Positions 8,822 to 62,400 of a DNA stretch of 64,000 nucleotides are shown one piece after another. Below the pieces are notes generated by a model, which made no database searches, was not told where the DNA came from, and saw only the letters and a list, made by a program, of their open reading frames with translations. The stretch covers positions 103,860 to 167,859 of the forward strand of contig JAHLKI010000043.1 of the NCBI GenBank assembly GCA_025602905.1, written 5' to 3'. The stretch's first letter is position 1; the number at the start of each line of letters is the position of its first letter. Made by a program: the position numbers and the translations under genes. The stretch comes from Phlyctochytrium arcticum. Lineage: Eukaryota; Chytridiomycota; Chytridiomycetes; Chytridiales; Chytridiaceae.

Positions 8822-9982
8822 CTACTGCGCTCCGACAGCCTGCCGGGCGGGGTTGGTGCTCTCCGTGACAGTTGCGTCAGGGAGTAAATCCGCCTTTGAC
8901 TCGCCCGCCTGCCTTCCACCAGCTAGGGCGGTCAAAGACTGAAAATGTGCAGTATCTGGGTTATAGGCCAAAAGATCTCCAGCCTTAAAGTCGAAAAACC
9001 AGCCATTAACACTAATTTCACCAGTCGACAACTTGTCTTTGATCCAAGGGTAGGACACCAAATTTTCCAGGGAGCAGATGATTGATGCTTGTTCGCAAAC
9101 TCGTGCTTGATGGTCGAAATCCAAATGACCAAAGTTATTGAGCGTGGTGTCTTTGGCTTGCTGCGCAATGCCCATCCAGGCTTCAATAAATTCGCATCCT
9201 GCATAAGAACCGCTGAGAAGGGCGCGGATTCCACCGCAGGAGGTGTGGCCCATGACAATGATAGACTGGACTTTCAATGCCTTGATGGCAAATTCCATCG
9301 CAGCTGACGTTCCGTGTCGGGTACCCATGTCGTTGGGAATATAAGGAGGAACGATATTTGCGACATTACGAATCACAAAAAGGTCGCCTGGATCACAGTC
9401 GGTAATGATGGCTGGGTCACATCGAGAATCGCAACAACCGATCAAGAGGGTTTTGGGAGCTTGACCATGTTGCAAGTTGGAGAATAGAGATGTGTTATCG
9501 GCAAAGAAACGCTTGTGGAAGCGTTGGAAGCCAGAGAGAAATTTCGACATGTTGGCACGGGCATTTTCATCTATTTTGGAGGTTCATTGAGCTTAAGAAA
9601 AAAAATCGTCGCCCACTAATATCTGCAACTCACCTAATTTACCAACATCTGATGTAGATGGAATACCAGGCTCTGAAATTTTCTTTCCCCGTTTTCCCAA
9701 TCCACCCGGCCCCTTTCCATCGTCGGCCTCCTGCGAAATGGCGTCTTTGTTTTGCTGCATTTTCAGACTAGCGGAAGTGTGTGAATGCGCTGGGACAATC
9801 TCCTCATTGGCCCTACGGATGCGATCCGCGACGGTATTGGCGGTGACGGGAGAGAACTCTTTCGCGACACCAGCATCAGTCGAATGGGTATTGACTGAGG
9901 GGCCCGCATTTTTTTGATTGCCTGACATGTTGGGGACTTCGCTTTCGATGCCGCGAGAGATAGATGCTTGTTTTATTTCCAT
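8822..9982 (-). CDS. Beta-class carbonic anhydrase with N-terminal extension
   Basis: Interconverts carbon dioxide and bicarbonate with a zinc ion. Two exons, 9982-9634 and 9570-8822, give 365 residues. The catalytic core shows CCDSR (zinc Cys and the Asp-Arg dyad), then MGHTSCGG with the zinc His and Cys, as in bacterial CynT-like enzymes (MSKFLSGFQRFHKRFF at the core start). About 115 residues precede the core. They are Ser/Lys/Glu rich, without clear structure, and not a classic targeting signal. The first ATG downstream of a TATA-like element at about 10071 is the one at 9982, which decides the start. The junction GKL-DENARAN restores the normal first helix of the family, so the extension truly belongs to the protein. 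Cellular site is uncertain. Confidence 0.92.
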
Positions 9983-10876: not shown

Positions 10877-13800
10877 TCAAATTGTCAAAACGAAAGTAGA
10901 TACATCTCCACGCGAATTGCCAACAAATATGACAGGTGAGGGGCCGCCACCAACCGTCATACAAGTAGGGTCATTGGTGGGATACATGGCAACAATCCTC
11001 TGCGAAGAATCATCAGAAAATTGCGATTTTGCAGGGTTTTTATCGTGACCAGAGTCGAGAGTATCTTTCAAACTCCAGACTCTCATGATATGATCGCTTC
11101 CAATTGTCACTATGTAAAGTCCATCGTCCGTGAAGGACCAGTGTAGTATACGGCCGGACTCATGTCGTAATGTGCAATAGCGTTGTGGTACATCTTGCTG
11201 CATAACAACTATAATCCCGATATCTGAGACGGTTGATCGCCGAATTTGATACGCTGATTGCTCGGTATCGATTCCAGCATACGCAAGGTGTTTCCCGTTG
11301 CGATGTGCCAAGCAAGATTGAATAGAAGTAAAATCTCCGTGCACACCGCCAGACGACCAAAGCGTGTTGTCGAGCCAAAGATCAGATGTTGAGCAATAGG
11401 CTATACCAGTAGGTGTCCAGTATATGTCACGTACTTCTTGCCCGTTTGTTTGGAATGATGTGGACTCATAACCATTTTGCAAGTCCAGAACATACACATG
11501 TTGTCCTTTTCCGAGTACAATTTTCGAGCCGTCAGGAGAAAGCAAATTTTTTGGCACTACAGTGGCATGTCTTTGAAATACTGGAGAAGTGTGGTGGGCT
11601 AGAGATCGATCGGGTCTGCGCAGTACTTGCCAAGCCGTGAATAACCCTGTGACATCCCATGTACAAAGGAAGAGGTTATGATTTTCCGTTTTGAGACGCA
11701 CTAAACTTGCTGTTCGGAGTGGTGCTTCCTGGTTCAGCTGCAATGCAATTTGAAGTGTGTTCATATCGTACGCCGAAACTGAAGCTCCTCCAACGACGAC
11801 CAAGTAGTTGTCATCTTTGGAATAAGCAATGGCCTGGCCTTTAAGACCCATAGGTACAACTCTCTTGGGAGAAAATGTCATTCGATTTTCAGTGAGCATC
11901 CAGAGAATAAACGTCTCATCACTTGACGTGGATATTACTCCCACCTCAGCGCTGTTTCCAGGAGAGGAATTTTGCTCGCGGCCGAAAAGTTCTATCTGAA
12001 GCACTGCTTTTTTGTGAACAATTTCAGAGCCGGGCGTGTCTGAACTTTGTTGCCCAAGTGATTTCCAATTCGAATTATTGCAAACCAGAAGACGGTTGCC
12101 TAACGTGAGAAAAAATCTTTCTTTTCCACGAGAAGTTCCGACACAAATTCCGCTTAAAGAGGCCGCGCCGGACGATATCTTTCGAAGAAGCCGACCATTT
12201 TGAATGTTTACCGCATGAATAACACCACTCGAGCTTCCACATAACAAGACCGTTTCGTCCGCAGAGAAGCAAAGGGTTTGAACGCTGAACTCCTCCGGTA
12301 GCTGAATCAAAGCAATCCGGCTACGGTTATCGATACGCCATATGGTTAGTTGACCGTCGTCGCGAGTGGCAGCAAGCAGATCATGGCTGAGCGAAAAGCA
12401 TGCTGTTGAATTTTGGGTAATACGAGTTTCGTTGAATCGACACAGTTCCCGTAACTTGGACGCATGGAGTACGATAACGCATTGTTTACGTTCAGAAAGT
12501 ACGGCCAACCGAGAATGGTCGGATGATACCGCTAATATCATATTGCACGTATTTTCTTCCAAACATCGATCAGGCGCTCGCGCGATCAATTCGGTACGCG
12601 AATGAGCAAGTGACTCTATATCCGCAAATAGAATCTGCTCTAGCTGCCCCAGAGGCGAGCGTTGCCAAAGGTTATGTTTTCCCTCGGAAAAGAAGCACAA
12701 CCCCCCATTGTAAACACCCTCGGCAATGAAGATCAAAGCCCCGGAGGATAAGTCAAATAGGCATACATCCTTACTTGCTAGAGCGAACGCTGCGTATTCT
12801 GCACCTCCCGGAGAAAGGCAGCACTGAGTCGCTGTCCCGGGGGGAAAAGGCGAGGCCAAGACTGTACGTAACAGGAAATATGAGTCGACGTCCCATGCTT
12901 TAATTGTACCGTCGTCAGAGACGGTCATACAGCATTTTCTCAGTTCCTTCTGTATGGTAATAGTACTGGTAATGACCTTTGTGGGATGTTGTCCGATAAT
13001 GATGGATTCTACTTGCGATTCACTAGCCGTTACGCAGTGTAGAAACAGACGACGCGATTTATCGTTTGCCCTCTCTTTGATTGCATCCTCTCGAACGGAA
13101 GGACAAAAAGTCTTTGGAAGGTTATACGCTAGCGTGAAGATCATGTCAGGATACGGTCTGAGATATTTTCCGTATGTTTCAACGAAAAAGCTGTAATCAC
13201 TGAGCTTGGCTACTGCGTCGGCCTGACCTTCCATTTGTGCTCGCTTCATCACTTCACCCAGAAAAGTGACGATCTCATATCCTGATTCGGCCAAATAAGC
13301 GCACCTGAGGAGGCTAAGAGAGCATAAAGCCTGCACGATGATTTCCAGCGAAAAGTTTGCTGAAAGCTGATGGTGCACAATGTCCAAGCTTCGACTATAG
13401 TCGTAGTCTCTCCAGATTTTATACTTTCCAGCAACCTTATAGCACACCGACATGAAGTACTCGGCCATTATTCTGTGCTGCTCTTGGGTATCTTTCGCGC
13501 TTTTGAAATATCTGTTTCGAATGGCGTTCGAGAAGTCCTCATGAAAAGGTATCAAATGTCCAGACTCAGTATAAACCACAAGGTCTTCAAGTGACTGAAA
13601 TATGAGGTTCCAGCTAACAAAGGGTAGCTTTAACAACCCAACGACTTCAACTTCCCGTAATCCAGAGCGAGCAGTCGCCAGAGCTCGAAGAACATTTGCC
13701 ATATTCTTGCCGTGCTCAATCTCCAGGTCACTCAGTATTTTGGCAAATATGTCGTTGGTGTTGAATGGAATGTCGTCCAAATTTACCGTCCCATCATTCT

Positions 13801-16800
13801 TGATCCTTCGGAGCTTGGCTAAGACAGATGCCAAGAACAATGGCTTGGAGAGATCACGTCTGGTAATCAAGGTTCGGATATGCCGGTCGTCCATTGAGGA
13901 CGGTAAAGTTGATCTGGTCCGGCGAAATATATCTGTTTGCTCGTTCGGAGATAATCCACCGAGATGCAGGAAATCTGCGTGCGGATGTATCCTTTGTAAC
14001 GAATCCTTAACTTTGAGATCGTTAGCACTGAACAAAAAGCGCACAGAATCAAATAGTTGGCTGTTCATCTCGGAACCGAGTGGTAGCCACTTGATATCCA
14101 ATCTGCGCGTCTGCGCGTCCAACACTCGGTCTATTCCATCAACTAGAATTAGAACCTTAAGATCCAATTCTGCTGCGATCTGCAGTAACCGTTTGAAATC
14201 ACTTTTGATTTCGTCAAACGTCTCTAGGGTATGTGTCCGTTCGAATATACCGAGCTGACGAGACAAGGTCCTGTGGAACCGCTTCAACATGTGTTGCGCA
14301 CTAAAGGAGCCATTCCAAGTACGCACGAAATTTGTCAACATGATGCATTTTGTCTTCTGGTAGCCTCGAACAATTTGTGAAAACAGCTCGGTCTTTCCGC
14401 ATCCCGCTTCCCCATACACAAGGATGGTTCCGCGATGCACTCCTGTGCTTGAAATGACAGGAGCGGTTTGAGTTTTAAATGACGCGAAGGCCAGAATATT
14501 ACGGATCTTTGTTAACAGTTCAGTTCGCCCAGCGAACGGGATCGATGTTTTGTGTGGAAGCCAGGCGCAGTACTCGAGCTCTCGCTGGACAATGGCTTTG
14601 TTCAGATCAGCAGTCAGTTGCTTCCCGAAATTCTCCAGCCCACCCATACGCACTTTTCTATTCTCAATCCGTGAAAAATACGCTTGATAATTGTGCACAT
14701 GGTCCCGGTGTGAATTTTCAACAAGATCCAGTTTCAGCAAATTCAAGCGAGAGGTTGACTCAAAGTCATTCGAAAGATATTGCGCTCGAAAACTCTTTGG
14801 GACAGAACGGGCGAAAGAGGGATCGCGAATGTAGAAGTTTGACAGCAATTGGCTGATATGCCTTCTCACGATTGCCAGCTCCTTTTCAAATAAAGAGACA
14901 TCTTGGCCAGGTTCTGTCTCGATGGTGTTACCAACAAAGCAGAGTGCTATATCAGTCCGCTTGATCTGCCATTTCAAAGCTGCGAGGTAATCAAGGTTGC
15001 TCTGCTGTTGCACGGGATGACCATGTTGGAAATCGACAACTAGAAGGAGGACCTTCCGACGGAGCCATTGCGCACGAACGTGTGGTAAAATACAGTCGTA
15101 GAAGTAGCTACGTTCATTTTCCATGTCTTTACTGGTGCATAGATAAACAGTAATGCTTCGCATAAGACCTAACGCCTCAGAGGCCCGATCGGGGATAAAA
15201 CATAGGTCATTGGGCCAATTGAGGTGTTCCATCTGATGTGTATCACCCATCGTCAAGGGAGACTTCGAGCCACATAAGCTTACACGATGCAGTAAGGCGT
15301 CCACGGGAGCTGTCAGTGACGTATGCACCAACTCAGGTGGAACTTCTGATATCGATGGCAGCAGGTTGGAAACTGAGTTCCAATAAGTAATAGGCAGCTG
15401 CAATGGCACAGCATTGGAGGATCTGTTCGAAGTGACAGGTCTGAAGGCGTGTCTGCCCACCCGTAGGTCTGGTTCAGCTACTTCAATGAATAATTTACAA
15501 CAAGGTAATTGTGAGCGATATCCAGGTCGCACGCACTGTAGCACCCCGTTAACAGTACAAGCGTTAAGCTCTTGCCAGTCTGTTACTCCATAAGCGGTTG
15601 GATACAATGTCCGATCCATGAAGATGGTGCTTATGGCCTCTTGTAAATTTTCGACGGCAAATAGCGCCTTCAGATTTTCAAAAGCAACCCCGTACTTCTG
15701 GCTACATGTTATCATGGCTGCGTACGCCAAGTTGGCAGGGTTCATCGGGAGCTTCGCACTCAGGATTTTCGGTAAAGATATGCACATGGAATGATGAATG
15801 AAATCATGCAAAGCAGCAAGCTCCTCGAAAAACTCTCGAGCCGAAAGTTGCTGTTGTGCCGAGCTCGATATCCAATCATCAGGGACTCGGTCGTTTACAA
15901 GACTCGCTAGACTTCTATTGCAATACTTCACGTCTTCCCGTAGAATGAGAGTTTTAAGTCCATCTCTTACGGTATGAATTGCTTTGTTGAATGAGTTGGC
16001 TTGGCGTAAAAAAATCAGCCGAGCCATTTCCGTATCGTTTCTGTTCACAGACTCGTACATATCGCGAAGCTTGACGAACTTTGGCGTGCCATTCCATAAC
16101 GACCCGGCGGTGAGCTGAGGTGATGGGACCTTGGAAGCATGTGGGCCATAGTCGCTTTCTGATCGTTCGTCATGTATCATCAATTTTCTTAAAACCCCAA
16201 GGAAATGTTTGGTCATTTGAGTACGATTATGCTGGTGACTTTCCATCCGCAGTTTCCAAAGATTCTGCACGCTATTATGCTGCGCGTTTTTGAAACTCCT
16301 CTCAAAGTTTTCGTAAGTAACAATGTCAAGTTCGGAAGCATTTGTGTATCGTTCAAGTAGAGCAAGGATCAGAAGCCGCCCCGCGTTTATAGGCGTTTCT
16401 TCCTCCAAGGTCGTGACTTCCTTCAAATAAATTACCGACACGCATATCTCCTCAATCACGTCCGGGGACACGCCCAAATTTACAAGCTGCGTTGTCAAGA
16501 ATGTGGCCAATTGAAAATCACTGAAGTTTATCTTCAGAGTAGAGTATTCCAAATTGTTCCAGGTTAATGCCATGCTTTGGGTAGCGGCATGCGTGTATAC
16601 GAGAGAATATAATGCGCGATTAACTGGTAGCGGAAGCTTGTGAGGACTTGACACGTAATTGTGCGCCAAGTCCTGAACAAGGATGCTAAAACGGAACATT
16701 AGTGCCAATCCTCATTGGAGGTCCGACAAAAGATGAGGCGCCTCGTACCTTAAGGATTGATCCTTATCAAGAAAAAGTAAATTCACAGCTGCAGCAAGGC

Positions 16801-19800
16801 CACTGGGCAAGAGATGCTGCATGTATTCGGGACAGACCATCCACACCAAACCACCTGCTTGCACTTTGCGCGCATACCACGAAAATTCGGAAATTTTTGA
16901 AATCCAGTAATGGTCCAAGTGAACCACTACCCAATCGCCTTCAACACACGCCCTTTCAATTTTTTCCCGCCAAATATTATCTAGACCCAGTGGCATAAGG
17001 AAATGTCCATATGGAAGCCGATCGAAATTACTAACCTTGTTTGTCTGATTCACCCAAACACACTAACCGGGTTGAATGATGTTCTTGGTCGTCCAAACTG
17101 GAACTGATGACATGTAACACGTCCTTTGATGAGTTTGTCACCAATACCTTGATTGGCATATGGAATTTCCCGAACAGCGTGTTCCGGTTAAATCCTGGCG
17201 GAAGCAATCTGACCCCAGTCGCTTGCATAAGCTCATCTAGTACTTGGGAAATACTATCGGGATAAAATAGCCTACATATGAACGCGTAAGAGATCAACTC
17301 GGACAAAAGGAATGGAACAGTCTAGTCTCACTTACATAAGTAGCAAGGCTCGCTCCACCGTCCCCACTCGGCGGTGATATTGGGTTGATACTTCGTGATC
17401 TTTTAAAATGTCAACTTGTTGCTTTTGTGCTGTTACTGCAGCCTCGACGAGTTGTTGAAAAGCAGGTCGTTGGCCTAAACCGCTTTTGGGCAGTCTGCTC
17501 ATCACTTCCTGCCAACGAATAAGTAACTGCGAATCGAGCACAGACAAAAATACACACCTCTGCAAGGAACTCCTCAGGAGTTAGATGGACGATACATTTT
17601 TTGAAGAAATCGCTATCAAAATGGCTGACCACCGACAAGTTGTTTGCCAGCAAGAGAAGAGTAGCCAGCACTACTGGCTCACGATCTGCTGCTTGTATCA
17701 TGCTGATTGTAGGAACAAGAACTGCAGCCGTCAATGCTGATTTAATCACGTCCAAATCTTCCTTTTTCGGGGTCCCACTCTGCAATAAAGCAGCGTGAGG
17801 CGACACCGCATCTTCAATGCACGTAAAGAGCATATGATCAGTGACACCATAGAGTGGTCGAAGCGCTTCCACTCCCTTGACATAAGACTTCAGGGTGGAT
17901 GAAAAAATTGCAATATGATGGAATGGCTTAAACAAATGCTCGTTGTGAGACTTGAACGTGCGGTAAATTGCCGCATTTCTTTCGGACTGATAGGAGTTAC
18001 GCTGATGCACGATGATGTCATGCATCAAGGGATCACTCTCTGTGATGTTGCTGGATAACATCATGCTGATACAAGATTGGAATGATTCTTCATTCTTTTT
18101 AAGTGCGGAACGAACATTGACTCCTAGAACAAAGTTAGGCATTGGTCAATGCGACGCGAAGTACAAGAGAATCTTACGCTGAGCCCGTCCCTGAAGGTCA
18201 AACGAAGGCCGTACAATATTCATGAGCTTATCCAAGATTATACTGCAAGTTGTTTCGGAAGAATGACAGCAATTGATCACAGAGAAAAACTCTGGAGTCT
18301 GTGTGGTGAAACTGGAAAGTTTGGACACCACGATCATTGACATTTCAGCCGACATCCCTGGCCGCCGTTCCTTTTTCCGCTGCTCCTGGATTTTGACTAT
18401 TTGTGAGCTGATTAAATCATCTTGAAGGTTGGTAATGATTATTGGCTTCCATGTTGACTTGAGCACAGCAAGCTGATCAATGAAGTTAGGAGCACGCGCG
18501 TCCAACTTCTGCACTTCACCCTTGAGCGGGAAGAGTTTGGTGCTATCAAGGAAAGGTTCAATTAATCCGTCGGGGTCAAGAATCCAGATATCCTGATTTT
18601 GAGATGTGATCAAAGCTATATTCTCTCTCATGACCTTGCTTTTCTGTAGAAATAATGCGTCGTGAATTGGACTTTCTGTCTTCCTAAATTTGAAACTCCG
18701 GCAGTTATCTGGGAATTCCTGCGAAATGATACTCTCAATTTCTTGAAAGAGTTCGAGTCGTTTTTCTGGTGGAAATGGCCCTAAATAGGTCAAGAAGGCG
18801 GATTGCAGAAGAGAATCACCTAGTAAGGTTTTCTCTGCAGCCGACAAGTCTGCAATTCGTTTGCTGATATCTTCTCCAATTTGACCGAGCGAGTTCGAGA
18901 ACCTGTTTTGAAATTGCAAGTACTTTCCCGTTCGCTTCCCATTGTGAAAGACAAAAATAGCTTGAAATAATTCTGCCAGAAGACTGAAAATTGATGTTCT
19001 TGATGAGGCAAGCACAGGTACAGTAACCTGCTGCGCTGGAGCTTTGAACAGATCCGAAACATTGGCGTTCAGGGAAAGGTGAACAATCCCACCACGGTTA
19101 TGCGGCAGCTGCTTTCGGAGTCGATCGATTGTGGCATTGAATACCCCATTCTTGCGCGCTTTCTTCATGATGAATTCATGGATAAATTTATCAGGCACTG
19201 GAGTCTTGTCAGTGGTTTCGCTATGCGCCACCAGCATATAGTTGCGCAGCGACGAATGCTTATCTCTTGACTGCCTAGTTGGCTGGCCTGCAATGCTGGG
19301 AGCTGTACCATCCTCGTGAAGATAATCCGAAAAAGCGTTTTCCACGGCAACAAAAAGATCATTGGCAAGCTCATAACTGATTAGCATGTCTGATGTAACC
19401 ACGGTGCCTTTATCGAGACGTCCAAGTTGAGCATACTCAGGCAGCTTCTTTAAGTAGGTAGTCATTCTCGCATACGCCCTATTTCGTGCTTTAGTTCCAG
19501 GCTAGAGCTTGTCTCACTTCAGAAATACATACTTGAAACCCATAAGACCCGCCAATGCGTGCGTTACCGACGGCTTTAGCGCGGTTAGCCGACTTTTAGT
19601 CATAGCGTCCAAGGTAAAGTAGAATGCTTTCCACGAGAGATTGTTGGGGTAGGAAAAGGCAATACCCCAGCCGCGTTTCAGACACATCCATCTCCAGAAT
19701 TGCATATTTACTAGCGCTTTGCTCCACGGCTGATTCACACGGAAGGATTGTGCTAATGTCCTGCTGTCGAGTAATGACAGAATTTTCAGTGAAAGAGCTT

Positions 19801-22800
19801 GTGGCAGCTGCCCGACGATATCAAAATAGATAGAATCAACATGCTTGCGGGTCGCTGAAAGTATATTGGCCAGATTGTACTCTTTCAAATTGTCTTGAAT
19901 GGTATTGAGCACCTGCGAATCGCTAAATCTTATGTTGGCCATCTCCCGCAAGAAAAGTTGCGGGTTACGCAGAATCCATTTGGCTAGTAATGGAGCATCC
20001 GCGTTCCAGCCGATCATTGCGCAACTGGTTCTTAGGATAGCCTCCAGTAGAGGATGAAGATTCTGGGCTGTAATATGACATCTCATGAGGTCCCTATCGG
20101 TTTCCTCCAGACGCTTTCGAACACTCTGATAAAGACGGGTAAGTCTTGATGATTAATAAATGCTCTTGACACGGACCTTCAACGTTTGTAGAATCACTTC
20201 AAATGGCCAAAAGGCGGCTTGAACCTCATACTTTTGACACCATATATTGTCGAACGTCTTCTTCTCTTGTTTCACCTTCTCTTGGTAATATTGCAACTGC
20301 GAGACTACTTGCTGATGTCTAGTCTTATAAGTGCGAACAGCTGTCGCAATATCGAAGACAGTCATGGCTCCCTTTGGGGCAGTGTACGGCATAATTGCCC
20401 TAGACGAGACAGCATTTTTATCTAATACACCGTTAGTGTTGCCTAGAGAGATTTTCATCGTACACACACCATAATATACGGTCCGATTGTAATCCGAATT
20501 GCCCACATTTCGCTTGGCGATCTCTTTCAAATCATCGACGTCGGAGCTTTGAGCCTGAAATGCAAGATCAGATTTGAACGGAGCTTTTCAAGAGCTGTAT
20601 AGAGCTCACCCGATCATGTATCAAAGGGACGCTACTCTGCTCTGGTAGTTGAAGAATGTCTAATAAGATACTGCGAGCGTGAGTAACAAACGGATTACTT
20701 GAACCCAAGTCCATCAACGTTGTTATATCGTCCAAGGTGAGACTGGAAAGCAGGGTTCGTATTTGCTTCGATTGCTCCTGACCCTCAAAAATATCTGCGG
20801 AAAGTAGTCCCTGAATTCCTCCCAGCTCCTGTACTGCTTTCGCGTAGTTCTCGTGAGCCTTCGCAACATCACCGTTGTCGAAAATAGGGCCATCATCATC
20901 GCCATGGAAAGCTTGCTGAATCCACTGGCTTTCTGAAATATGGTCGACCTCCCCTGGTTCGTGTCTCTCGAAAATACCTGTTGGGGCGAAAATTTCCTCC
21001 AAAAGCGCTATACGCCCAACCAGCTCACGTTTATCATTTTGAAGGCGGTCATGCTTTTCCCGTAACTCTGCTTCCTCCTGTGTAGCAATTAAAAGCTTAT
21101 CGCGAGTCTTGATGATTTTTTCCTGAGAATCAGCAGATCCAACCATTCGCTTTTGATTTTTCGAAAAACTTTGGGCTTGCTCTTCTCTAACTCTCCGCGT
21201 TTCGCGAACGGAGGTGTAAAGGGTAGCTATCCATGAGCATAACTCTTTAGCAGCAACGCCCACAACCGCGCAACGATCCGGTCGGAAGGCGCTAGCTTCG
21301 ACGATTAATTTCAGTTTCATAAGGGTAACATCTGACACGGTGTCTGGCCCGAATCCGAGAAGTTTGTGCAGGAATGAGTGGCTGGCTAAAATTTTCCGAG
21401 CTTCTGCCCACGACGGCGGGCGGTCAAAAAGAATGCACAGAGCGTTTGATAGCATGACAACTGATGCTGGTAGTTCACCCTCCGTCCGTAGCTCCTGGAA
21501 CGCGTCCTTGCGCAGCGCTTGTAAGCGTTTCTGGCTGTTTTCCAGCATCCGTCGAGCGGCATCCAAAGCACCATCAGCTAGGGTCTGTTGTCGTTCCCGC
21601 CATTCCCGACCTACAAGATCCTCATCCAGTTTCAGCTTATACCGTAGCTCTTTAACAGTGGCTTCGCTGGTGCGTAGGCGACTCCTGACTTCTTCAAGTT
21701 CTAAGGCAGTTCGACGCAATTCTTCAGGAAGATGCTTTAGACTTTTGCGCGTAGCATCAATTGTCGACGCAATTTTAGTTTTTCCATCAAGAACGCGTTC
21801 TAGACAGTTGGAATATCTTTTCAATTGATCTTGGATGGATCGGCGCTTTTGCTGATACGAACTTGAAAATCTCTGAAGATGGTCCTCAAAACTTCGTAAA
21901 GAAAAAAGACGAGCAGAAGTAGACCAGTTGCTCGATTTTTCGATTACAGCTGAATAGAGACGGGTACTCAGCAACGAAACTTTCGAGACTTCCAGGCCGT
22001 CACTCTTAGTGGCTTCATTTACCCCGGTTTGGGTGAGATAATGGTTAGCAAAGTCCGCAAGTCCTTCAGCTGGCATATCACGGTACATTGTCAGATCTGG
22101 AGCCGAAACGAGTTTCGGGTATTGACCTATGGTTCTCAGAGTAAGGAGGTGTCAATCGTTTCCAGTTTGGGATACACTTCTTACTAATTTTTTTCCAAAT
22201 TGCCAAATCTCTGGCATCAAAAAGCAAGATTATTTTCAAGTTGGTCAAGGTCCGCTCATTAAAATTCCTTTCGGTGTCGAATGCTGATTGCAATCTCTTT
22301 TCATTCGTCGCAGTACCTTCCTTTCCTAATGTCGCAGTGTTGACGGCCTTCTCATTATTTTTGGCTTGATGAGCAACTTTGGTAAGGACATCTTCGTATT
22401 CGCTGGCAGACCATAGTTGTGCAGATCTTCCATGGTCCATTAAAGCATTCACATCGCCAAGTATACCATGAGGTAAATTGCTACCTTGGGGCAATGTAAT
22501 ACCGACAACGACCTTCTGCTGCGCAATAGTTGCTTCCAAAATTTGGCGACGAATGAAAGTATGCCATGGTACTGTCTCTGAGATTTCGGAAACAGTGAAC
22601 TCACGGTACTTATAACCTCTCATTGCAGCGCAGAGCTTCACTATGTCCTTTTGTAGTTCCAACTGCATATGAGCCATGGCTATCGCACCAGACCGTCGTT
22701 TGCTTCCCAGAACACGATCCAATCGGCAAAACTGATCGATTGCCCCGCGATATGAGGTGATGTTGCGAGAAATCAGATTACGAGTTTCGTTCTGGGCAGT

Positions 22801-25800
22801 AAAGATCGAGATTGCCTCTTTGATGGTGTCTTCCTCTACTTCACGATACGTCGACCGTTCCATGTAGGCAGTTTGCGTGAGCATAGCATTCGATTGTTTC
22901 ATTACGCCCGTGAAGCCCAGATTGAAGATGGAACGATTAGTGTCTTTATCATTAGGGATGACAGGTGTAGTAGTTATGTCGGAATAATATACCGATCGGG
23001 AGTCCTCAGGTATGACTTGGTGTAGATATTGTAGCGACACCTGACGAATGGTAGCGAGATATGTTGGAAAGTCGATTTCATCTATACGGTCCTGATGAAA
23101 TAAGCTGGCTGGTGAGATAATGTATGTAATTTCACGGTAGTTACCTTGTATGTGCGTTCCATCTCATGAGACCACGCCCGGATGAGCCGCTTGTTGCTCC
23201 TCCAGTCCTCGTCATCCACTCGTAAAAGCCCATTGAAAACCTTCGCGACATCCCTCGGTTTAAAACTGCAAAAAGAGTTTCCCAAGCATCTTTGCTGTAA
23301 CAAAGTATGACTGCGCAATGTAGCTGCTAGAATTAGCTGAACCTTGTTTCCTTTGTGCAGTAGATGCTCGGAGTATTGTTGGCGTGTAGCTTCGAGCACA
23401 TCTTCATCCTGGAATGGAAGACAAACGAAGTGTCTGGTAAGGCGCCTTTTGAGTGTCCACGTATCCGACACTCCAAGAACTGCAACCTTGCGGACACGTC
23501 GAAAGTTACATCCATCGCTCCAGTAGCCCCCGCAATCAATGAAAGAGCGCCAAAATTCTTGAACGGAGGAACCTTGTTCCGATTCACTTTCAATATGGAG
23601 ATCATCGATAAAAACTATCAAGCTTTTCCCATTGGGAGGCCCATATACAGTTCCACTTTCGTCCTTAATTAAATTCTTCTGTAAATGACTGGTGAAATCA
23701 CTCGATTGAGATTTGGGGTGCATAGCGTGTGTATGCACGGCGAACTTTTGATCAAGCATCATTTCCAAAATATTCTCCGCAGAAGACGTCTTACCGGAAG
23801 ACGCCACTCCACAGAGCAGAACATTCGATCCATAGCGAAGAAGAAGTGTCGCTAATGGTTGAAAACGTGTGATGACCCCACGATCATGGTCAATCCCCCA
23901 GTTACCAGTATCGATGTGCAAATTCAGCTCGAAAATGGACCAGCTACGATTGGACTCAAGCTGGATTGCTAGTCGACTTTGAGAATTCTGGCAGTCGAGA
24001 GCCACAACGAGCCTCTTTTGAAAGCTAGCCCGGTCCTTGACCGAAATCTCTAAACCGAAAGACCAAATAGCTGCGAACCAGAAATAGTCCTCAATGCAGG
24101 CTTTCCAGCGGGGATTTAATGTCTGAGCTTCAGTGCAAACAGCTTGAAATATGTTCGTAAAACCCGCAAATGCTCTGCGCACCGTGTCATGTGTTTCACA
24201 GTAGTGGTCGAGGGCGTCAACTACATCTCCTAAGTACATCCCTGCGACAGATTGTATGGAAAGGTGGCTACTTGCATCCCCTTTGAAGTAAGCGCTAGAC
24301 AACCCAAATAGCCATTCTGCTAGTGCCACATGCCAGAGCCACCTCTTATGTACATGGACGATCTGAAAACGTGAGATAAACCCAAGTGAAACTTCACTCA
24401 AGTTTTCCGACTCCACAATAAGGACCATATTCTCGGGTAACGAGAGTCGCTTCCCGGTCGGGAGACAAAGAGTACCAGGCGGTATGATAGATGATATGCT
24501 GTCAGTCCAGCTTGCCATCAGAGGCCCGTCCATGTGGATAAAAAATTTCTCGGTGTGAGCAAGCAGGCCTTCGACGATTCCTTTACTATGACCGGCTGGG
24601 GTCGTAGCCCCAAAGAGAAGTCCCTGAGATATCGCTACTGGGTTGATTCGCACAAGCTGGGCGGCTGATCGTGTTGCAGCTATACCAATCGCGGATGTCT
24701 TCCCGGTTTGACTTGCGCCAGACACTAAGATCTGCGCTCCTGAAACTCGAGTCGTTCTCAAAATTCCTTCTATTACATCCGCAATGTGCGTATGCAGTGG
24801 CGATATCTGATCGAGATCCAACATTTCCGTCATTCTGCGTCCCAGCAAAGGACCAGGTGAAGGATTTTCGCCGGCTGCGCAGATTGATGTGTTCAGTAGA
24901 TTCTCAAAGATTTGGAAATCCTCGCCCGTGAATCGAGTGCTAGCCCAATCGAAAATGCATCGCCTTATCACTTGTAGTTCATCACTTGTACCCCGTCGTT
25001 TTTCAATCATCTTGCAGATGGAAACAAGGCTGCATATACCCCCAATAGGCAAAGAAAGCCCTTCGCAAGCTCGCCAAAATGCCGCCATTTTCCGAGAGTA
25101 GCGATCCCATTCCGCAATACCAGCTTTTCGGAGAAGTAGCGTCGCGATTGTTCCTATGGATGGTACACGAAGCTGTATTGGAATCATCTGGGTACGAATG
25201 ATGCCGCTGAAAGCCGGGTCAGACATGTCGTCGCAAGTCGCAAGACATCGTGCATGAACGACCGGGGGGAGCTTGATTACTCTTCCAAGAAACATCAGCG
25301 AGGAGACATCTTTCCGAACTATCTTCATAATGTCGTTGACCGCTAATATGGCATTCAGGCAAACATTCAGAGCTTCATGTCCGAGGCGCTCGATGTTTCG
25401 CATGATAAGAAACGAACCCGTCATGACCATTCCTGTAAGAGCGCGTCGCAACATCCTCCCATCTACAGTGTTTGAGCAGCTATAAACTACCGCAAATCTT
25501 CCAACCGTGTAGGTAAATTCCAAAAGATTGGTAGTTTTGCCAACGGTGGGAGGGCCGGTAGCGACTAGCCCCTTGTTTGTTTGCAGGGCGAGCCATATAC
25601 TTTGAAAGCCTCGAGAAGAGATACCAAATGCGATTCGCTTGCAGGCGGGAATATATTCGAACCCATACTGGGCTTTATACACATACTGAGAAAGATTGAT
25701 AGATACCTCATCCTCATCATAATGGTACCTAAGATTCTCCAGCCATACCACTGACTTTTGAAGATCTTTGCATAATGCACGTTCATGTTGTAAAGCCTGT

Positions 25801-28800
25801 AGCCAATCCCGATGTTGTATCGCCAGCGTGAGCAGATTTCTTGCGTGGATAGTATGCTTTGGCCCCATTAGTCTAATAAACGTTTGTACTTGCCCCAGTA
25901 ATTGTTCGATGAAACCGGATTGGCTGAGTAAGGTCGGATCACTAAGTTCCTTTGTCCGGTGAATTTGGTAGATTATAATCTGCAACTGCGAGGGGATACT
26001 ATCTTTTTGTGAATCTTTCTCCTCCGATCGTAGTAATTCAAAAAGGATCTCTTTCAACGTAGCTTGAATTTGGGCCTCAATCTTTGTCAAAAGCTCTTCC
26101 AAGCTGAGATTCGCCATCGAGATTGGATTTCTAAACATTAGGATATCTCCAGGGCCTGCTCTTATCCCCGTGATCTTGAAATCCTGGCCGCCCACGCCAC
26201 TGGTCTGATAAACAAGAGTGGTAAAGTGGAAACACCTTTGCGAGAAAATTCTGTTAGCAAAGTTGTTAAAAGTAAAAAACAACAAGATCCATACTTGGAC
26301 AGATGCAAACTTAATTCCTTTGGCTCTCGCTTCACCTTGACCAACTCAAGAAGTTCTTCATCGGCGCTAAAAAAAAGACGAGGAAACCCTATACGCTTTC
26401 CATCTAGCCATCCTTGAACATCCCCCACCAATTTTTTGAGAACGTCTCGCATATCTCTCAAGCCTTCCGCGAGGTCAGGAGCATCATCCACCAACGCCTT
26501 CATTCCAGTATTCTTCTCTGCCTTGGCCAGCAAAGCTCTGTATGTGGTTTCTACAGCGTTAAATCGTTTTGTCTCAAGAGGCAGCGCAACGCGCACTTCT
26601 GTTGCACTGAAGAACGTATGAGTGGAGAGTAAGAGAGGTTGGGTGATGGACCATTCTGTAAGTGCAGTTGTAGCAAGCTGTAGGTCCTTCTGCAGCAGTA
26701 AGAGCGAATCTATGTAATGATCCACCCCCGGCTCTGAAGAACCGTCAACGAGCATACCAACCGACATCAAATCAGATTCCACGACGCTCATGACAAACTC
26801 GAAACGATGTATCACAGTGAGCCCACTCGCTTCATCCTGCCCCGTTTCAAATTTCAGCTGAGCAAAGCGGGTTTGCATATCTTCGAGTGTTTGGGAGACG
26901 CTGCGCTCGGCCTCAGCTTCTTGCAAAACTTGTGACAGATCAGAGTGAAGAACTGCCAAGTTGCGCCGACCAACGGTTTCGATAACATCGTTTAAGGTAT
27001 ATAGTGCTCGATCAAAATCCTCCAGCTCAAAAGATCCTTTAATAGCATCCCAATGCCACTCGTGGAACTGATCATAGGCCATGGCATCCAGTATCGGACA
27101 TTCATTGCGCAAGAAACTTGAAATTGCATACTGGGCATACTTTACTATGGGAAAGCCTGAAAACTCGGCGTGCGCGAACTTGACAAGGTATTCCTGGCAG
27201 ATCGCTCGCACCTGGGCTGCATCAATATTGGTAAAAACTGTGCTGCACCAGCCCTGCAAGTCTAATCGGTATTTCGTCAGCACATTGACTAAATCCATCT
27301 TGCTTTGAATTTGCTTCATAAGCTCAACAGCGTCTGCAATCTTCCCCGAATCCTCAATACATTCAGCGTCCTCTTGAATCGTGCGAGATACAGCGAGCAA
27401 AGTTTTCATATGTTCAATTGCCGGGGAGAACTGCTCGACAATGGGAGGCACTGCTGGCTCCGCCTCGCGAACAGCCTCGTCCTCTTCAATCAAGCGATCC
27501 TCATCATCACTGTCGGCCATGCTTGACGTCTCAGGTAGCCCGGGAATGTTGCTGCCAAGCAGTTCGTCCACCGATGATAGCAGCGCTGCACATTGGGTGC
27601 GCAAATCTGAAATGTTTGTAGCCAACATCGCCTGCAGCATCAGAACTGACTCATCGATTGCTTGTTTGCGCTTTTCAGCGGAGGCCTCAAGCTTGCTGTA
27701 AACAGTATATGCTTCGTAGTACGCGAAAGAGTCCTCATCGCTGATATTCCGCAAATATCCATCCAGTAGACCCTTTAACCCTCGGATCATGTCGCTCTTG
27801 ACCCGAATGGCAGAGACTGTTTTCTGAAGTAGCAGATAACTCTGTATGGCCTGCTTTGTCTCCTTGAATGTTTTTGGCGATCTGGGTACCTTATGATGTG
27901 CTCGGGTTTCCAGAAGGTCAGCGACACTCTTTTTGAAGAGTTGTAATAGATGCTGCAATAGCTGCTCCCGAGTTTGTGTGCTCCAGTGCTGTAGATCTGT
28001 CTTCAGTTCAGAGGCATCTACCGTGAAGGGACCGCAAGCGGAAATACTCGGCTGGGCTTTCGCGTGATGTTCAATTTGCGATATCGCCTTGAAATGAGCT
28101 TCGCACGAGTTGATAAAGACTTGTGCTGACTGAATTTCTAGTATTGGCATTGGCATTTGGACGGCCGATTCCATGCGTTGCACAAAGAAAGCCTGTAAAT
28201 CGTGCAGTTTTGTGTTGCACTGACGTATGCCGTCTTCAAGCGTTTCATTATACAACTCTTGAAGAAATTTGTAATCCTCTGGGAGTGGGTTGTACCTTCC
28301 AGAGGGCAAAATGCATTCCTGTGACTCCAAAGTACCGGCGTCTTTCAGATTCCTCTCAGTGTCTTCCAGATTGCAACAATACTGAATGCTATAGAGCCCG
28401 TTGCTTGCATCCTGATGGAACTTGAGTGGCAAAATAATTCTCAAGTCGCCATGATGAAACGCTTTATAGATATGTAGAGCATGAAGGCGACATAGTGGGC
28501 TTACAATCCCTTTCGCAAAATAACTCACGAAATTGCAAATCAATGATTTTGCGGTCTCAATGTCTTTGCTCCTCAATTCATCGGAGCCTACATCACACTG
28601 CAAGTTGTGAGCGGTTTCGGCGGAGAGTACGGCACTTTTTACAGCTGATGGAATGGTTGTGTTCAGAGCCTTTGTGAATTCGAGCTTCCACTGCCCACAT
28701 AACTGCATGAAATAGGCGGGTGTAATGATGAAAGGTTCAGGGGTAAGTTTCGGACCGGTCTTGCGACTACTTATCAAAATGCGCATAATGTCCATCTCCA

Positions 28801-30852
28801 AACAGCGTGTGCAGTCCTCGCGCAATTGTCGGATAGAGTCTCGGCATTTCACAAAGTAGAAGTCAATGCGCGCCTCCAGCTCTTCTATTCGGTGCCCCGC
28901 ATATCCACGCTCCACGCATTCGATGGGCTCGCAATCCAAGGACCAGTGAACTGCATTGGCGGTCAACGCAGACGAGTCGTTCTGGTCCGGGAGGAATGTC
29001 CGTAAATGCGAACTTTGTAGAACCGCTGCCTGCACTTGAGACCGGATAAAATCATTCCAGATCTCGGCGCGGAGATTGATCAAAAAATCGGGTGGATATT
29101 GCCACATGTCGCCTTCCGGGGACAGCTTTACCATCATGTATTCCGCATCTTCTGAAGGATGGATATCGCTATCGTTTTGGGTATCAGGTTGCTTGAGAAA
29201 GCTCTGGTGTATCACGCTCGTAAAAACACCTTCGGCCATCCGAAATGGTGTATCAGGTATGTAAGATCGTAGAAAAGGGCGGAGAATGGCAGAAAATTGG
29301 CGCAAGGCCAAGTGATATTCAAAGTCCACTCGCAATTCTCGTGCACGCAACAATTTCAGACGATGAGCATGGGGTGTTTCATTCGGAAGAAGCAAATCGG
29401 TGCGGGTGAGGTATGTTGGAAAATGCTTCCGACCGGGCAGTGGAGATCTCTCCCAGCGAACTTTGAATCTCGCGTCATCGGCATGATATGACAGGACTGT
29501 ACAAGGATAGTAGCTTGGAGTAAAGTTGAGTGCAGGCTCAGGGTCTTCTGCGGTACTGGGTGTGCTGAGTGCTGCTAATCTGGCTCTCGTAGCAATCCCT
29601 TCCGAGTTTTTCCGCAGAGGTTCCACCAAGTACTTTTGAACGTCCTCAAAATCCATGAAAAAATCCAGTGGAAAGATTTGCCCGACGTTGCGTTTCCCAT
29701 GACTGGAAAGCCCCCCTTGGAACGACCAATGACTTTCTGCAGTCGCAATCGGTGGTCTGAACACCTCCACGGGGTCTTCGAAAGCAACTTGAGGGGAGGC
29801 CATCTCGGGTATGGGTTCGGCGATTTCAGCCGCCGCCGCCATGAGTGAGGGGATAGGCGTCAACCGTTTAAGACCACGCACGGCCTTTGGGACAGGATAC
29901 CTTCGAACGATTTGACTGAGAATGACATGTCCGTCGTTCTTGTCAAAATATTCAGAAGGAATTTGGTGCTGACTCAATTGCGCTGGTGCTCGAAATGATA
30001 CTTGAGGGCAAGTGGTTTCCTCGATATCTACTGGAAGCCCGAGCCGCCTGTTATTCTCGATTGGCTGCTCATCGTCATCGTCCCATAAAATGCTTGGAAT
30101 GCCAGGTTTTGGCGAAATCACGGGTGCCGGCTTCCAAGGTACCTGCAAGACATCCCCAATAATATCGAGCAGCCTAGATTTTGTTTCACGCGAAAGTGGG
30201 CGCTGCTTGCGGGGTAGAAGCAGGTCATCTGAGGGTTCATCTCCCAGCATCATGGCCCGTCGAGCGGACCGAATCCGGCGGCCTCTGTTTCCGCAAACTA
30301 TCTCATCGGCGGATGTGGGTCCAGCAGGATAATTCTGTACTGCTGCCGATGTCGGTCTTACAAATACGAGCTTGTCCAGCTCGCGAAAGCTATTCAGACG
30401 CGTCCTGTGTTCAGCTGAGAGGTCCGCTGTTTTGGGCCGTAGTACGCGTGCTGCTGGCAAAGAAGGGACATTCAACCCTTCTCGCCAGCACGCATCATCC
30501 TCTCCCTCAACAAAATGCGGTGAATCATAACGGACATGTGGGTTTAAATAAAAGGTTACTCGGGAAGACCGTGGCGCGTCGTAGTCCCGCTTTCCCACCC
30601 CGCGTTCTTTGCCAAAGAATTGCTCCAAAAAAACTTCCTCTGCCTGAGCCCACCGCGAAATTTCATCCAGCTCTTGTGGTGTTGATGGGTATTTGTGTTG
30701 TTGCGGGGTCACGGCACTTTCGATTGGGAGTGGTCGAATGTCAAACGAGATCTTCCCTGGAAAACTTTTGCGTCAGTATGTTTACACAAGAAAAGATCCA
30801 TCATCTTACTGCTGTTGGGATGCAGAAAGCGTCCCGAGCTTTCCATAGTCAT
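10877..30852 (-). CDS. Giant dynein heavy-chain-like protein fused to DUF4062, NACHT and WD40 modules
   Basis: Thirteen exons: 30852-30810, 30756-26295, 26235-23145, 23091-22185, 22096-20610, 20554-20177, 20125-19533, 19478-18178, 18123-17558, 17526-17336, 17271-17036, 16980-16749, 16685-10877; 19,296 nt, 6,431 residues. Order by rough residue: tail and linker to 1500 (signature GKRIGFPRLFF); AAA1 P-loop GPPTVGKTT near 1729, but the Walker B block reads FLIMRNIER, without Asp/Glu; AAA2 GASQTGKTS near 2008; AAA3 GVASSGKTS near 2311 with FIDDL near 2377; AAA4 near 2661 without a P-loop; stalk with microtubule-binding-domain-like segment 3032-3137; F-box-like 3561-3624; AAA5 near 3872 (LLGDSLLQSAFLTYLGPF); AAA6 and dynein C-terminal domain to about 4880 (LVNDRVPDDW); DUF4062-like 5003-5090 (YLCTSKDMENER); NACHT with GEAGCGKTE near 5254 and LILVDGIDRV near 5341; WD40 repeats from about 5680 to the end. 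Probably non-motile and linked to the flagellum or to sensing (inference). The intron between exons 9 and 10 would be only 31 nt, the weakest junction. Confidence 0.85.
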
Positions 30853-31316
30853 CAGCAGAACGCGTCGCAAACGCGGACAGCTATCTGATGACAATCTGAC
30901 AGCGGTCAAAAATTCACCAGTCAATCTGCTCTGACTGCGCTTGGCTTACTCAGCTTGGGCCACGTGACACACGCGAAACGCGAGGACGCGCGCGACTCTG
31001 GTACGGGTAATTCAGGGAAGCGGGACGCGTTCCCGAGTTCTGGCAAAAGTCGACAGTTTTTGCCCTGATCACATCTCCTTTGCGACGTAGGAATCGTGGT
31101 CCTTTCATTTTAGGTTGTGATCTGATAGCCGAATGTTCTTGCAGATTGGGTGGTGCCCCCTTTAATCATACTCGTAGAAGATGCCCTTCGGAGATATGAT
31201 TAAATGTCAGCGGAACGACCTTAAATACTTGGACCCATCTCAGAGTCTCCCGGGGCAAAGAGCCAAGTTCAAGACACACATATAGACACTTTCACCTCAT
31301 AGAATCTGGCGACCCG
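30853..31316. promoter_or_regulatory. Divergent intergenic region between the dynein fusion and the carboxypeptidase
   Basis: 464 bp between two divergent starts, so both promoters should lie here. A TTAAATACTT element near 31221 is a possible TATA-like box, 96 bp before the carboxypeptidase ATG. A CACGTG box (E-box type) occurs near 30961. Neither is proven functional. Confidence 0.4.
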
Positions 31317-32639
31317 ATGCTTCAATCCCTCTTGTCCTTGAGTGCGTTTGCGCTGCTGGCCAGCACCAGCGTCCTCGCCGGCCGCGTTGCACGCGCAGAA
31401 GAACCCGAGAAACTCGTCCTGGACTGTCTCCTTCAGACAGTCGAGCAGCAGCACATTATCGCTACCGCCGACATTGATCTCTGGTCTCACCACCTCCTAC
31501 TCAACGACACTGTTCAACTCCGAGCCAGTGCCCAACAAGCTGCCGATTTCGCAACGCAGGGTATTCAATGTCAAGAGCTCGACCTGGATTTGCCTGCCTT
31601 GATTGCCGAGGAGCGCCAGCCGGTGCTTGTCAGACGCCAGAAGCCTACTTGCACCTCATTCGGAGCACCCAGCGCACCCGACCCCTTCTTCCAAAGCTAC
31701 CAAAGTTACGACGCTATCAAATCTAAAGTTCAATCCTGGGCGAAAAGCTATCCCGACTATGTCACTCCTCTTGGCTCTGTCGGCAAGTCCGTGGAAGGCC
31801 GGGACATTATTGCTTTCAAAGTCACAAACAACAAGATCTCTGCCACCGAGAAGCAAAGTATCTTTTTCAACGGAGGGATCCATGCTCGGGAGTGGATTGC
31901 CAGTGCGACCCTCATGTACGTGACAAACAACCTCGTCACCAAGGCCAGCACGGATGCTCAGTTGGCTGGCTTTTTGGACAAGTTTGAGATCTACATTATC
32001 CCAATGTCCAACCCCGACGGCTACGAATACTCTCGCTCCAGCACCAGCACCAGCGTCCGTATGTGGCGAAAGAACCGACGGGCAAACGCCAAGAAGAGCT
32101 GCATGGGTGTTGATCTGAACCGCAACTTTGACGCGAAATGGGCCCAAGTCCCTGATGGATCTTCTAACGACCCTTGCCGCGAAGATTACCGAGGTCCTTC
32201 AGTTGGTTCCGAGCCCGAAATTCAAGCCGTCATGAAATTTGTCAAGACTCTTCCCAACCGTCTCGCTGGAATTGACTGGCACTCTTACGGACAACTCCTC
32301 CTTCGACCCTGGGGATGGACGTACACCCCCAACAGCAACGACGCGCAGATTCTCGACCTGTCCAAGAAGGTCAAGTCTGCCATCGCCGGCGTCAACGGTC
32401 TTCAATTCTCCACCATCCCTGGCGCAGATCTTTACCCCACTGACGGCGCTACTGACGACTGGATGGGACTCAAGATGGGCATGACTGCATTCACCTTTGA
32501 GTTGCGAGACACCAAGACCTTTATCCTGCCCCCTTCCAACATCATTCCTTCTGGCGAGGAAATGAGCGCTGGTGTCATCGCCTTCCTCGACTTTCTGAGC
32601 AAGAACAAGCTGAACTCTTACCAGATTCCGTCTTCCTGA
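31317..32639 (+). CDS. Secreted zinc carboxypeptidase, M14A family
   Basis: Removes C-terminal residues from peptides outside the cell. A single exon of 440 residues. Residues 1-21 form a signal peptide (LLSLSAFALLASTSVLAG). A propeptide follows, up to about residue 110, where VRRQKP may mark the cleavage site. The mature enzyme shows the zinc motif HAREW (His and Glu of HxxE), substrate-side MWRKNRR, GVDLNRNFD, the third zinc ligand in GIDWHSYGQ, and the catalytic Glu in FTFELRD. All key residues are present. Codons lean strongly to C at third position compared with neighbours, which fits high expression. No intron is seen. It is divergent from the giant dynein gene. Confidence 0.95.
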   Translation: MLQSLLSLSAFALLASTSVLAGRVARAEEPEKLVLDCLLQTVEQQHIIATADIDLWSHHLLLNDTVQLRASAQQAADFATQGIQCQELDLDLPALIAEERQPVLVRRQKPTCTSFGAPSAPDPFFQSYQSYDAIKSKVQSWAKSYPDYVTPLGSVGKSVEGRDIIAFKVTNNKISATEKQSIFFNGGIHAREWIASATLMYVTNNLVTKASTDAQLAGFLDKFEIYIIPMSNPDGYEYSRSSTSTSVRMWRKNRRANAKKSCMGVDLNRNFDAKWAQVPDGSSNDPCREDYRGPSVGSEPEIQAVMKFVKTLPNRLAGIDWHSYGQLLLRPWGWTYTPNSNDAQILDLSKKVKSAIAGVNGLQFSTIPGADLYPTDGATDDWMGLKMGMTAFTFELRDTKTFILPPSNIIPSGEEMSAGVIAFLDFLSKNKLNSYQIPSS

Positions 32640-47422: not shown

Positions 47423-47495
47423 GCCCGGTTAGCTCAATCGGTAGAGCGTGAGGCTCTTAACCTCAAGGTTGCGGGTTCGACCCCCGCATCGGGCT
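47423..47495 (+). tRNA. tRNA-Lys (anticodon CTT)
   Basis: 73 bases fold as a full cloverleaf. The acceptor stem pairs GCCCGGT with ATCGGGC. The D arm is GCTC...GAGC and the anticodon stem is TGAGG/CCTCA around loop CTCTTAA. The variable loop is AGGTT and the T arm GCGGG-TTCGACC-CCCGC. Anticodon CTT reads AAG. No intron and no encoded CCA. A T-rich stretch follows at about 47496-47504, fitting polymerase III termination. Confidence 0.97.
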
Positions 47496-61847: not shown

Positions 61848-62083
61848 AATTGTTGTTATTGAATGTTTAGTATCTTTCCTTCTTTAAACAAGAGTTTTAT
61901 TTCTTTAAATAACAATTAAACGCAACATCGACATTCAAAACGGTATTGGTCATAATCCATCATATACATCGAAATTTCTCGAATTCGATGTAGACGATGA
62001 CTCTTTCAAACGCAACACATGAAATATTGATTCATATTTAAAAAGATAGTAAAATAGTTTAGCATTATTTTAATATTCTTGCA

Positions 62084-62281: not shown

Positions 62282-62325
62282 TATCTTTAAGGGCTATGAG
62301 GAAAAGGGGGGGTCAAATCGATATT

Positions 62326-62400
62326 CTTGATAATCTCGATCGTGTAGGAACATTAGGAACATTAAGATTATCGATATTACCCCCCCACCTCCCATAAATG
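62326..62400. promoter_or_regulatory. Repeated hairpin/C-run element, copy 1
   Basis: Contains CTTGATAATCTCGAT, later AGATTATCGATATTACCCCC and CCCATAAATG. A close relative lies at 63438-63510. It sits between the HTH gene and the next small gene. It may be a promoter or terminator element of the virus-like unit. Confidence 0.5.

Follow-up and report, generated by a model that had tools for sequence, protein, structure and literature searches.

Can a protein that carries the complete layout of a dynein heavy chain also be a STAND-type sensing switch, and which of its ATP sites would then do the work? This question is raised by a locus of the chytrid Phlyctochytrium arcticum (genome of 31.5 Mb, 91 contigs), in a window that comprises the 64,000 nucleotides analysed here (contig JAHLKI010000043.1, C43:103860-167859). 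On the minus strand of this window, to which all features of the gene described below belong, DFS34DRAFT_698061 (10877..30852; 14 exons in the NCBI model; protein P0002, 6419 aa) almost certainly encodes in one polypeptide a dynein heavy chain layout followed by DUF4062, NACHT and WD40 domains. An earlier note on this DNA had proposed such a fusion. The central new observation is that the motor ATP site of the dynein part has been lost, with the ATPase motifs of the STAND part intact; beyond the earlier note, we also describe an F-box and the TIR-like nature of DUF4062.

Gene structure and fusion junction

Mapped back to the window, the NCBI model begins at 30852 and its 14 exons end at 10880, where the stop codon follows. 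The 13 exons and 6,431 residues counted previously came close, differing in one exon and slightly in length from the 14 exons and 6,419 residues of this model. The single uninterrupted minus-strand frame claimed in the earlier note is indeed present: it stays open over 1,944 codons, from 16711 to the stop codon at 10877, which has a log10 chance of about -45 at the composition of the window, and it contains both peptides quoted in that note. A gene finder written for this analysis returned a 6,432-aa model that joins this big exon to the upstream exons. It differs from P0002 in the first two residues, by a spurious last intron at the 3' end and by three minor internal changes (5 and 16 additional residues in our model, and 7 residues replaced by 1). 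Dynein and DUF4062-NACHT-WD40 are thus joined within one 5.8-kb exon, as had been claimed.

A search of the protein database with the linker-AAA1 region of S. punctatus SPPG_06767 (869 candidates scored) yielded six proteins of 6,419-7,433 aa at E 8e-72 or better, from S. punctatus (the query), S. 'palustris', P. arcticum, Borealophlyctis nickersoniae, Batrachochytrium dendrobatidis and Entophlyctis helioformis. The five members besides P. arcticum have collinear gene models of 6,481-7,433 aa; the next match was a 4,056-aa dynein at E 9e-18. With the DUF4062-NACHT region as query (7,987 candidates scored) we further obtained a 2,147-aa protein of Polyrhizophydium stewartii, which by eye reaches from the vicinity of AAA6 through WD40 and therefore spans the dynein/DUF4062 junction. 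NCBI taxonomy assigns the members looked up, all but S. 'palustris', to Chytridiales, Spizellomycetales, Rhizophlyctidales and Rhizophydiales. An alignment of the six full-length models covers them from one end to the other, and N-terminal region, linker, AAA1-AAA4, stalk, F-box stretch, AAA5-AAA6, C-terminal domain, DUF4062, NACHT and WD40 are kept across the family. The same domain order in other zoosporic fungi, which the earlier note had named as the supporting check, was therefore found, the junction being present in gene models of seven species from four orders. Since word-based searches miss relatives (one gave 3 members, another six), it does not follow that the family is absent outside chytrids.

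We also considered whether neighbouring dynein-like and DUF4062-NACHT-WD40 genes had been wrongly joined by annotation or splicing. The fusion is known from gene models, not transcripts, and the linker from the dynein C-terminal domain to DUF4062 is poorly conserved; however, the junction lies inside a single uninterrupted exon and recurs in the gene models of the seven species. For these two reasons an annotation chimera is rejected, and we give it next to no credence.

Domains of the dynein part

The linker (DHC_N2; 26294..27325; Pfam E 2e-40), AAA1 (AAA_6; 24696..25667; E 6e-23), AAA3 (AAA_7; 23418..23870; E 2e-20), AAA4 (AAA_8; 22213..22752; E 5e-10) and the stalk with the microtubule-binding domain (MT; 20940..21992; E 3e-8) were all recognized by Pfam in the upstream exons. 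AAA2 (23871..24788) was placed by family alignment and profile, and AAA5, AAA6 and the lid, which are divergent and lie on six exon pieces (16070..18844), by family profiles. The C-terminal domain follows at 15644..16099, identified by Pfam Dynein_C and the family profile. Linker, AAA1-AAA6 and stalk thus stand in the order of a dynein heavy chain, with the C-terminal domain after AAA6.

Segment profiles built from the six species were run against 37 other dyneins (P0008-P0044; 4,054-4,910 aa), their E-values being calculated for a set of 37 sequences only. Because these dyneins had themselves been retrieved with the linker-AAA1 region, matches there were expected and the later domains are the real test. 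Linker, AAA1, AAA2, AAA3 and stalk each matched all 37 at the corresponding places. Further along, matches were obtained in 22 (AAA4), 23 (AAA5), 30 (AAA5-AAA6 stretch), 16 (AAA6) and 2 (lid) of the dyneins; from AAA4 to AAA6 they are weak and in the order seen in dyneins. For the C-terminal domain, 11 of the 37 were matched at an independent E-value (iE)<1e-3, the best at 3.4e-17, at their own C-terminal domain; precomputed domain lists give Dynein_C for 27 of the 37. Pfam Dynein_C itself was found at residues 205-356 of the big exon with E 1.4e-4 and 21.7 bits, below the cut-off of 25.7. Dynein C-terminal similarity, whose lack in the first 390 codons of the 5.8-kb frame would have spoken against the earlier claim, is therefore there. 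Since the domains through the C-terminal one are matched in order, the fusion point lies after a complete dynein and not within one.

Several observations weigh against so complete a dynein end. The dynein D6 model PF03028 has 11 matches elsewhere in the genome and none in the fusion gene, and the precomputed lists give Dynein_C within the family for P0006 and P0045 only. Moreover, apart from NACHT the AlphaFold model is of low quality (mean predicted local distance difference test, pLDDT, 48.2), so that the folds of the dynein C-terminal domain and of DUF4062 rest on sequence profiles.

The N-terminal 1150 residues (27350..30852) are present in the family, and the family profile of this region matched none of the 37 other dyneins at iE<1e-3. 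Residues 250-560 of P0002 form a block conserved in P0003 and relatives (e.g., PCTVLSYD), to which the 37 dyneins have no similarity; this block could be a Tudor-like fold.

Loss of the motor ATP site

All six full-length members retain the lysine and the threonine of the AAA1 Walker A. The Walker B Asp-Glu, on the contrary, is found in 37 of 37 other dyneins and neither residue is kept in any of the six members, in which Asp is changed to Arg, Gln or Thr and Glu to Asn, Gln, His or Tyr. P0002 has Arg-Asn at these positions (residues 1781-1782; 25395..25400). The hydrolytic site, made up of Walker A and the Walker B Asp-Glu, is consequently incomplete throughout the fusion family. AAA4 has lost its P-loop in all six members; AAA2 keeps Walker A and the acidic Walker B position, and AAA3 keeps Walker B and, in the window copy, also Walker A.

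Hydrolysis at AAA1 is the power source of dynein. Since its Walker B acids are gone, a walking motor is unlikely, and the dynein body is very probably non-motile as judged from these residues. The fusion protein would thus be a dynein by descent that we do not class as a working motor. Some features of the ring count against this reading. The AAA3 Walker A is R-K-T in three of the six members, and two positions past the lost AAA1 Glu all six carry an acidic residue, Asp or Glu, in place of the Asn of the 37 dyneins; this shifted acidic residue might conceivably step in for the lost one.

Phylogenetic position

Both trees that we calculated recover the family as a single clade (100/100), which has a long stem and is nested in no sampled dynein class. 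The first tree had 34 rows: 6 family members, 8 of the 12 other dyneins of the P. arcticum genome and 20 of the 37 comparison dyneins; four loci of this genome were left out for their introns, its C43 locus as the same gene as P0002, and P0045 as a fragment. It showed signs of long branches meeting, namely those of the C16 dynein and the fusion family. In the second tree, without C16 (33 rows), the family was again supported with 100/100 and separated by a long branch from the 27 others. A sister relationship of the family to a sampled dynein class was dropped for lack of nesting in either tree.

The C16 gene (C16:571700-585700) encodes another highly divergent dynein heavy chain of this genome, which lacks an AAA1 P-loop and shows no NACHT. 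Its branch exceeds 4 changes per column in the first tree and its position is unsure; it is possibly a DNHD1-like orphan. DNHD1, for which we know of no C-terminal STAND module, is like the fusion gene a degenerate dynein-related gene. It has been described as a ghost gene and an orphan (PMC8754002).

Alternatively, the fusion gene might be decaying towards a pseudogene, a fate already suggested for DNHD1. Its AAA5, AAA6 and C-terminal parts are very divergent, the AAA1 and AAA4 sites are lost, and the stem in the trees is long. Full-length models that can be aligned end to end in six species are hard to reconcile with decay, as is the conservation of N-terminus, linker, stalk, NACHT and WD40, and we regard this explanation as very improbable.

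The NACHT/STAND module and WD40 region

Downstream of DUF4062, the gene encodes a NACHT/STAND ATPase with winged helix and helical arm (13154..14554, from Pfam, model and alignment), in which Pfam NACHT covers 13916-14428 with E 3.5e-7, above the cut-off. All seven members retain the Walker A motif, the D..DR pattern of Walker B and the His of the winged helix. The structure model of this part matches Apaf-1 over about 400 residues and has the fold of nucleotide-binding domain (NBD), winged helix and arm; the fold search used model ranges from residue 709 onward, that is, without the DUF4062 and dynein parts. The WD40 region extends over 10880..12928, with propeller-type Pfam matches at exon residues 1257-1556 and 1847-1884. 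Since the NACHT motifs are kept in 7/7 members and the AAA1 Walker B is lost, the STAND module is the evident ATP-driven part of the protein, and its motifs predict that it is probably a working STAND switch. A point against this is that the precomputed lists give NACHT for P0002-P0005 and P0007, and for neither P0006 nor P0045.

Six-frame searches of the genome returned the fusion gene as the sole NACHT match at E<=0.001 and no match for NB-ARC. No separate DUF4062-NACHT donor gene was found in such searches, which scored the best candidates only. P0046-P0048 were considered as donors of the module and set aside, their identity of 20-24% being too weak to name a donor.

The TIR-like DUF4062 domain

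DUF4062 (14537..15163) was recognized by the family profile and Pfam. The window copy alone gives a weak Pfam match (E 0.08, 13.6 bits; cut-off 24.7), and five of six family pieces match at E<=0.1 (best 1.7e-5). With the family profile, the TIR-like chain of TEP1 (11gz_A) is matched at E 7.1e-31 as the sole solved chain at E<=1, which makes the TEP1-like affinity suggested earlier a firm one. A 2026 preprint shows that DUF4062 acts as a TIR-like NADase both in human TEP1, where activity depends on Glu 1008, and in bacterial defence (PMC13174449). In the alignment with TEP1, an offset of 893 makes R908, R954 and R976 coincide with Arg, and E1008 with Glu, and so fixes the register. The E1008 position is Glu in all seven members, as the second Glu of an invariant E-x-E pair; in P0002 it is Glu 5086 (codon 14879..14881).

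These data are consistent with an NADase, a possibility to which we give somewhat less than an even chance. Several observations count against it. R908 and R976, whose change to Ala lowers the activity of TEP1, are Arg in none of the seven members; the window copy has Lys at the first, and at the second five of the seven have Lys, the window copy Thr and Borealophlyctis Gln. Because these active-site Arg are not kept, we do not class the domain as an NADase. The loop preceding the Glu is 16 residues long in the window copy and 27-37 in the six others, and the DUF4062 of the window copy is the most altered of the family. In addition, the same preprint reports no NADase activity for human NWD1, NWD2 and NPHP3, which have DUF4062 beside NACHT (PMC13174449).

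The last three proteins are the model for another account, in which the fusion protein would be a static, non-enzymatic platform like ciliary NPHP3/NWD proteins, its DUF4062 inactive on NAD+ and its NACHT controlling no more than the assembly of a large structure of the flagellum or basal body. The loss of the helper Arg residues of TEP1 and of the main hydrolytic site of the ring agrees with this, as does the match of three of six DUF4062 pieces to the NPHP3 domain model (best 7.7e-5). What argues in the other direction is the Glu position, retained in 7/7 even where neighbouring residues drift, and the fact that TEP1, which is active, was the only solved chain to be matched at E<=1. We find the static platform rather doubtful.

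The stalk-AAA5 stretch and its F-box

Between stalk and AAA5 lies a stretch of about 630 residues with introns (18844..20940) that is largely without counterpart in other dyneins; family profiles of its three segments matched 1, 0 and 0 of the 37 dyneins. An F-box was found within it by Pfam and profile search (19676..19813): Pfam F-box-like matched 5/5 family pieces scanned (best 8.5e-10), and the family profile matched F-box proteins such as FBXW7 among solved structures, the best of all at 1.7e-5. SKP1 is present in the P. arcticum genome. The F-box may have an output of its own, the protein acting as a microtubule-anchored adaptor of a SKP1-cullin ubiquitin ligase in which WD40 and NACHT would govern substrate capture. 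We consider this improbable as the main output. The F-box is located centrally within the dynein part, a long way from the WD40 repeats; most of it is missing from the Borealophlyctis gene model, perhaps a gap of that model; and its own structure model failed (exon pLDDT 51.6, 0 PDB matches at E<=0.001). The precomputed lists, which give F-box for P0003, P0004 and P0006 only, also count against the assignment.

As a separate observation, three SKP1 matches have identical scores (C1:1566271, C42:115434 and C42:169819), the latter two on opposite strands of C42, which might be a recent duplication or an assembly effect.

Proposed mode of action

The earlier note had suggested a scaffold joined to a STAND switch; this fits, and is strengthened by the loss of the AAA1 Walker B acids together with the retention of the STAND core. 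We lean slightly towards the reading that in this chytrid family a dynein retired as a motor has become the platform of a TEP1/NWD-like STAND module. AAA1 would bind ATP and scarcely hydrolyse it, so that the protein would not step. A large anchor would be provided by the dynein body, whose retained ring and microtubule-binding stalk would hold the protein on microtubules, most likely in the zoospore flagellum or at its base. A microtubule or flagellar site is, in our estimate, about an even bet. All members found are from flagellated fungi, which fits a flagellar role and is no proof of one.

By analogy to Apaf-1 and TEP1, WD40 may act as sensor and lock, keeping NACHT closed until a ligand is bound. 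ATP exchange would then let copies oligomerise and bring their DUF4062 domains together. As output we rank first a local NAD+ hydrolysis by the TIR-like domain, which could be a signal for stop, resorption or death, and second the recruitment of partners without catalysis; the F-box may in addition couple the protein to a SKP1-cullin ubiquitin ligase. The full chain, a cell-fate sensor in which a non-walking dynein carries a STAND switch on microtubule or flagellum with a TIR-like NAD+-cutting output, is speculative and we hold it to be unlikely in its entirety. Under it, an axonemal event such as damage, attachment, infection or encystment would be turned into local loss of NAD+ and shutdown.

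Comparison with known proteins

TEP1 shares with the fusion protein a DUF4062 adjoining NACHT, the WD40 repeats and the catalytic Glu position; it differs in having the helper Arg, and to our knowledge it has no dynein. The vault family PF01505 gave no match in the P. arcticum genome, which is uninformative, as the control genomes had none either. NWD1, NWD2 and NPHP3 have the same DUF4062-NACHT core with other partner domains, and we know of none with a dynein heavy chain. Apaf-1, NLR and STAND proteins show the same succession of NBD, winged helix, helical arm and WD40; the N-terminal partner is a CARD in Apaf-1, whereas in the fusion it is a dynein plus a TIR-like domain. Axonemal and cytoplasmic dyneins share linker, ring, stalk and C-terminal domain in order, but not the loss of the AAA1 Walker B and the AAA4 P-loop, the F-box stretch and the C-terminal STAND module.

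The open-licence PubMed Central (PMC) literature searched, judged mostly from result listings, gave no account of a dynein-DUF4062-NACHT-WD40 protein, and one lead. In the ctenophore Mnemiopsis leidyi 38 NACHT genes are reported, and the partner domains of NACHT named in the legend of Fig. 3b include DHC_N (dynein heavy chain), WD40 and DUF4062; the available text does not discuss a dynein-NACHT fusion (PMC11797021). The Mnemiopsis entry would be either a normal dynein in which a P-loop happened to match NACHT or a relative of the chytrid fusion. Dynein and NACHT are unrelated in the retrieved part of PMC13043383, and the main text of the 2026 fungal flagellum atlas, as far as extracted, has no mention of NACHT or F-box (PMC13358043). 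Regarding NLRs, one fungal survey reports no chytrid hits (PMC4986451), a later one counts one in species of Chytridiomycota (PMC12258605), and a passage of a further article cites TIR-NLRs in chytrids (PMC9815663). Each module is known; as far as we searched, no description exists of a dynein that combines a conserved loss of its motor site with an F-box and an intact STAND module of the TEP1 type.

Other features of the window

A carbonic anhydrase gene (8825-9583, minus strand) lies about 1.3 kb 3' of the fusion gene, a zinc carboxypeptidase gene (M14; 31200-32636, plus strand) is divergent from its 5' end, and a tRNA-Lys(CTT) is located at 47423-47496 on the plus strand; no link of these neighbours to the fusion was seen. 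In its AT-rich end (GC about 0.40 vs 0.47 overall) the window contains an 839-aa frame on the minus strand (59367-61883) with D5_N (PF08706; E 3.9e-10), which looks like a mobile or viral replication gene. Near it are two 79-nt direct repeats that are 82% alike (62314-62392 and 63427-63505) and a pair of 42-nt inverted repeat arms (57283-57472).

Significance

If the proposed reading is true, a cytoskeletal motor has been repurposed in chytrids as the carrier of an immune-type ATPase switch, the working ATP site having passed from AAA1 to NACHT. The finding bears on the possible roles of motorless dyneins, for which DNHD1 may be compared, and on NLR-like proteins in chytrids.

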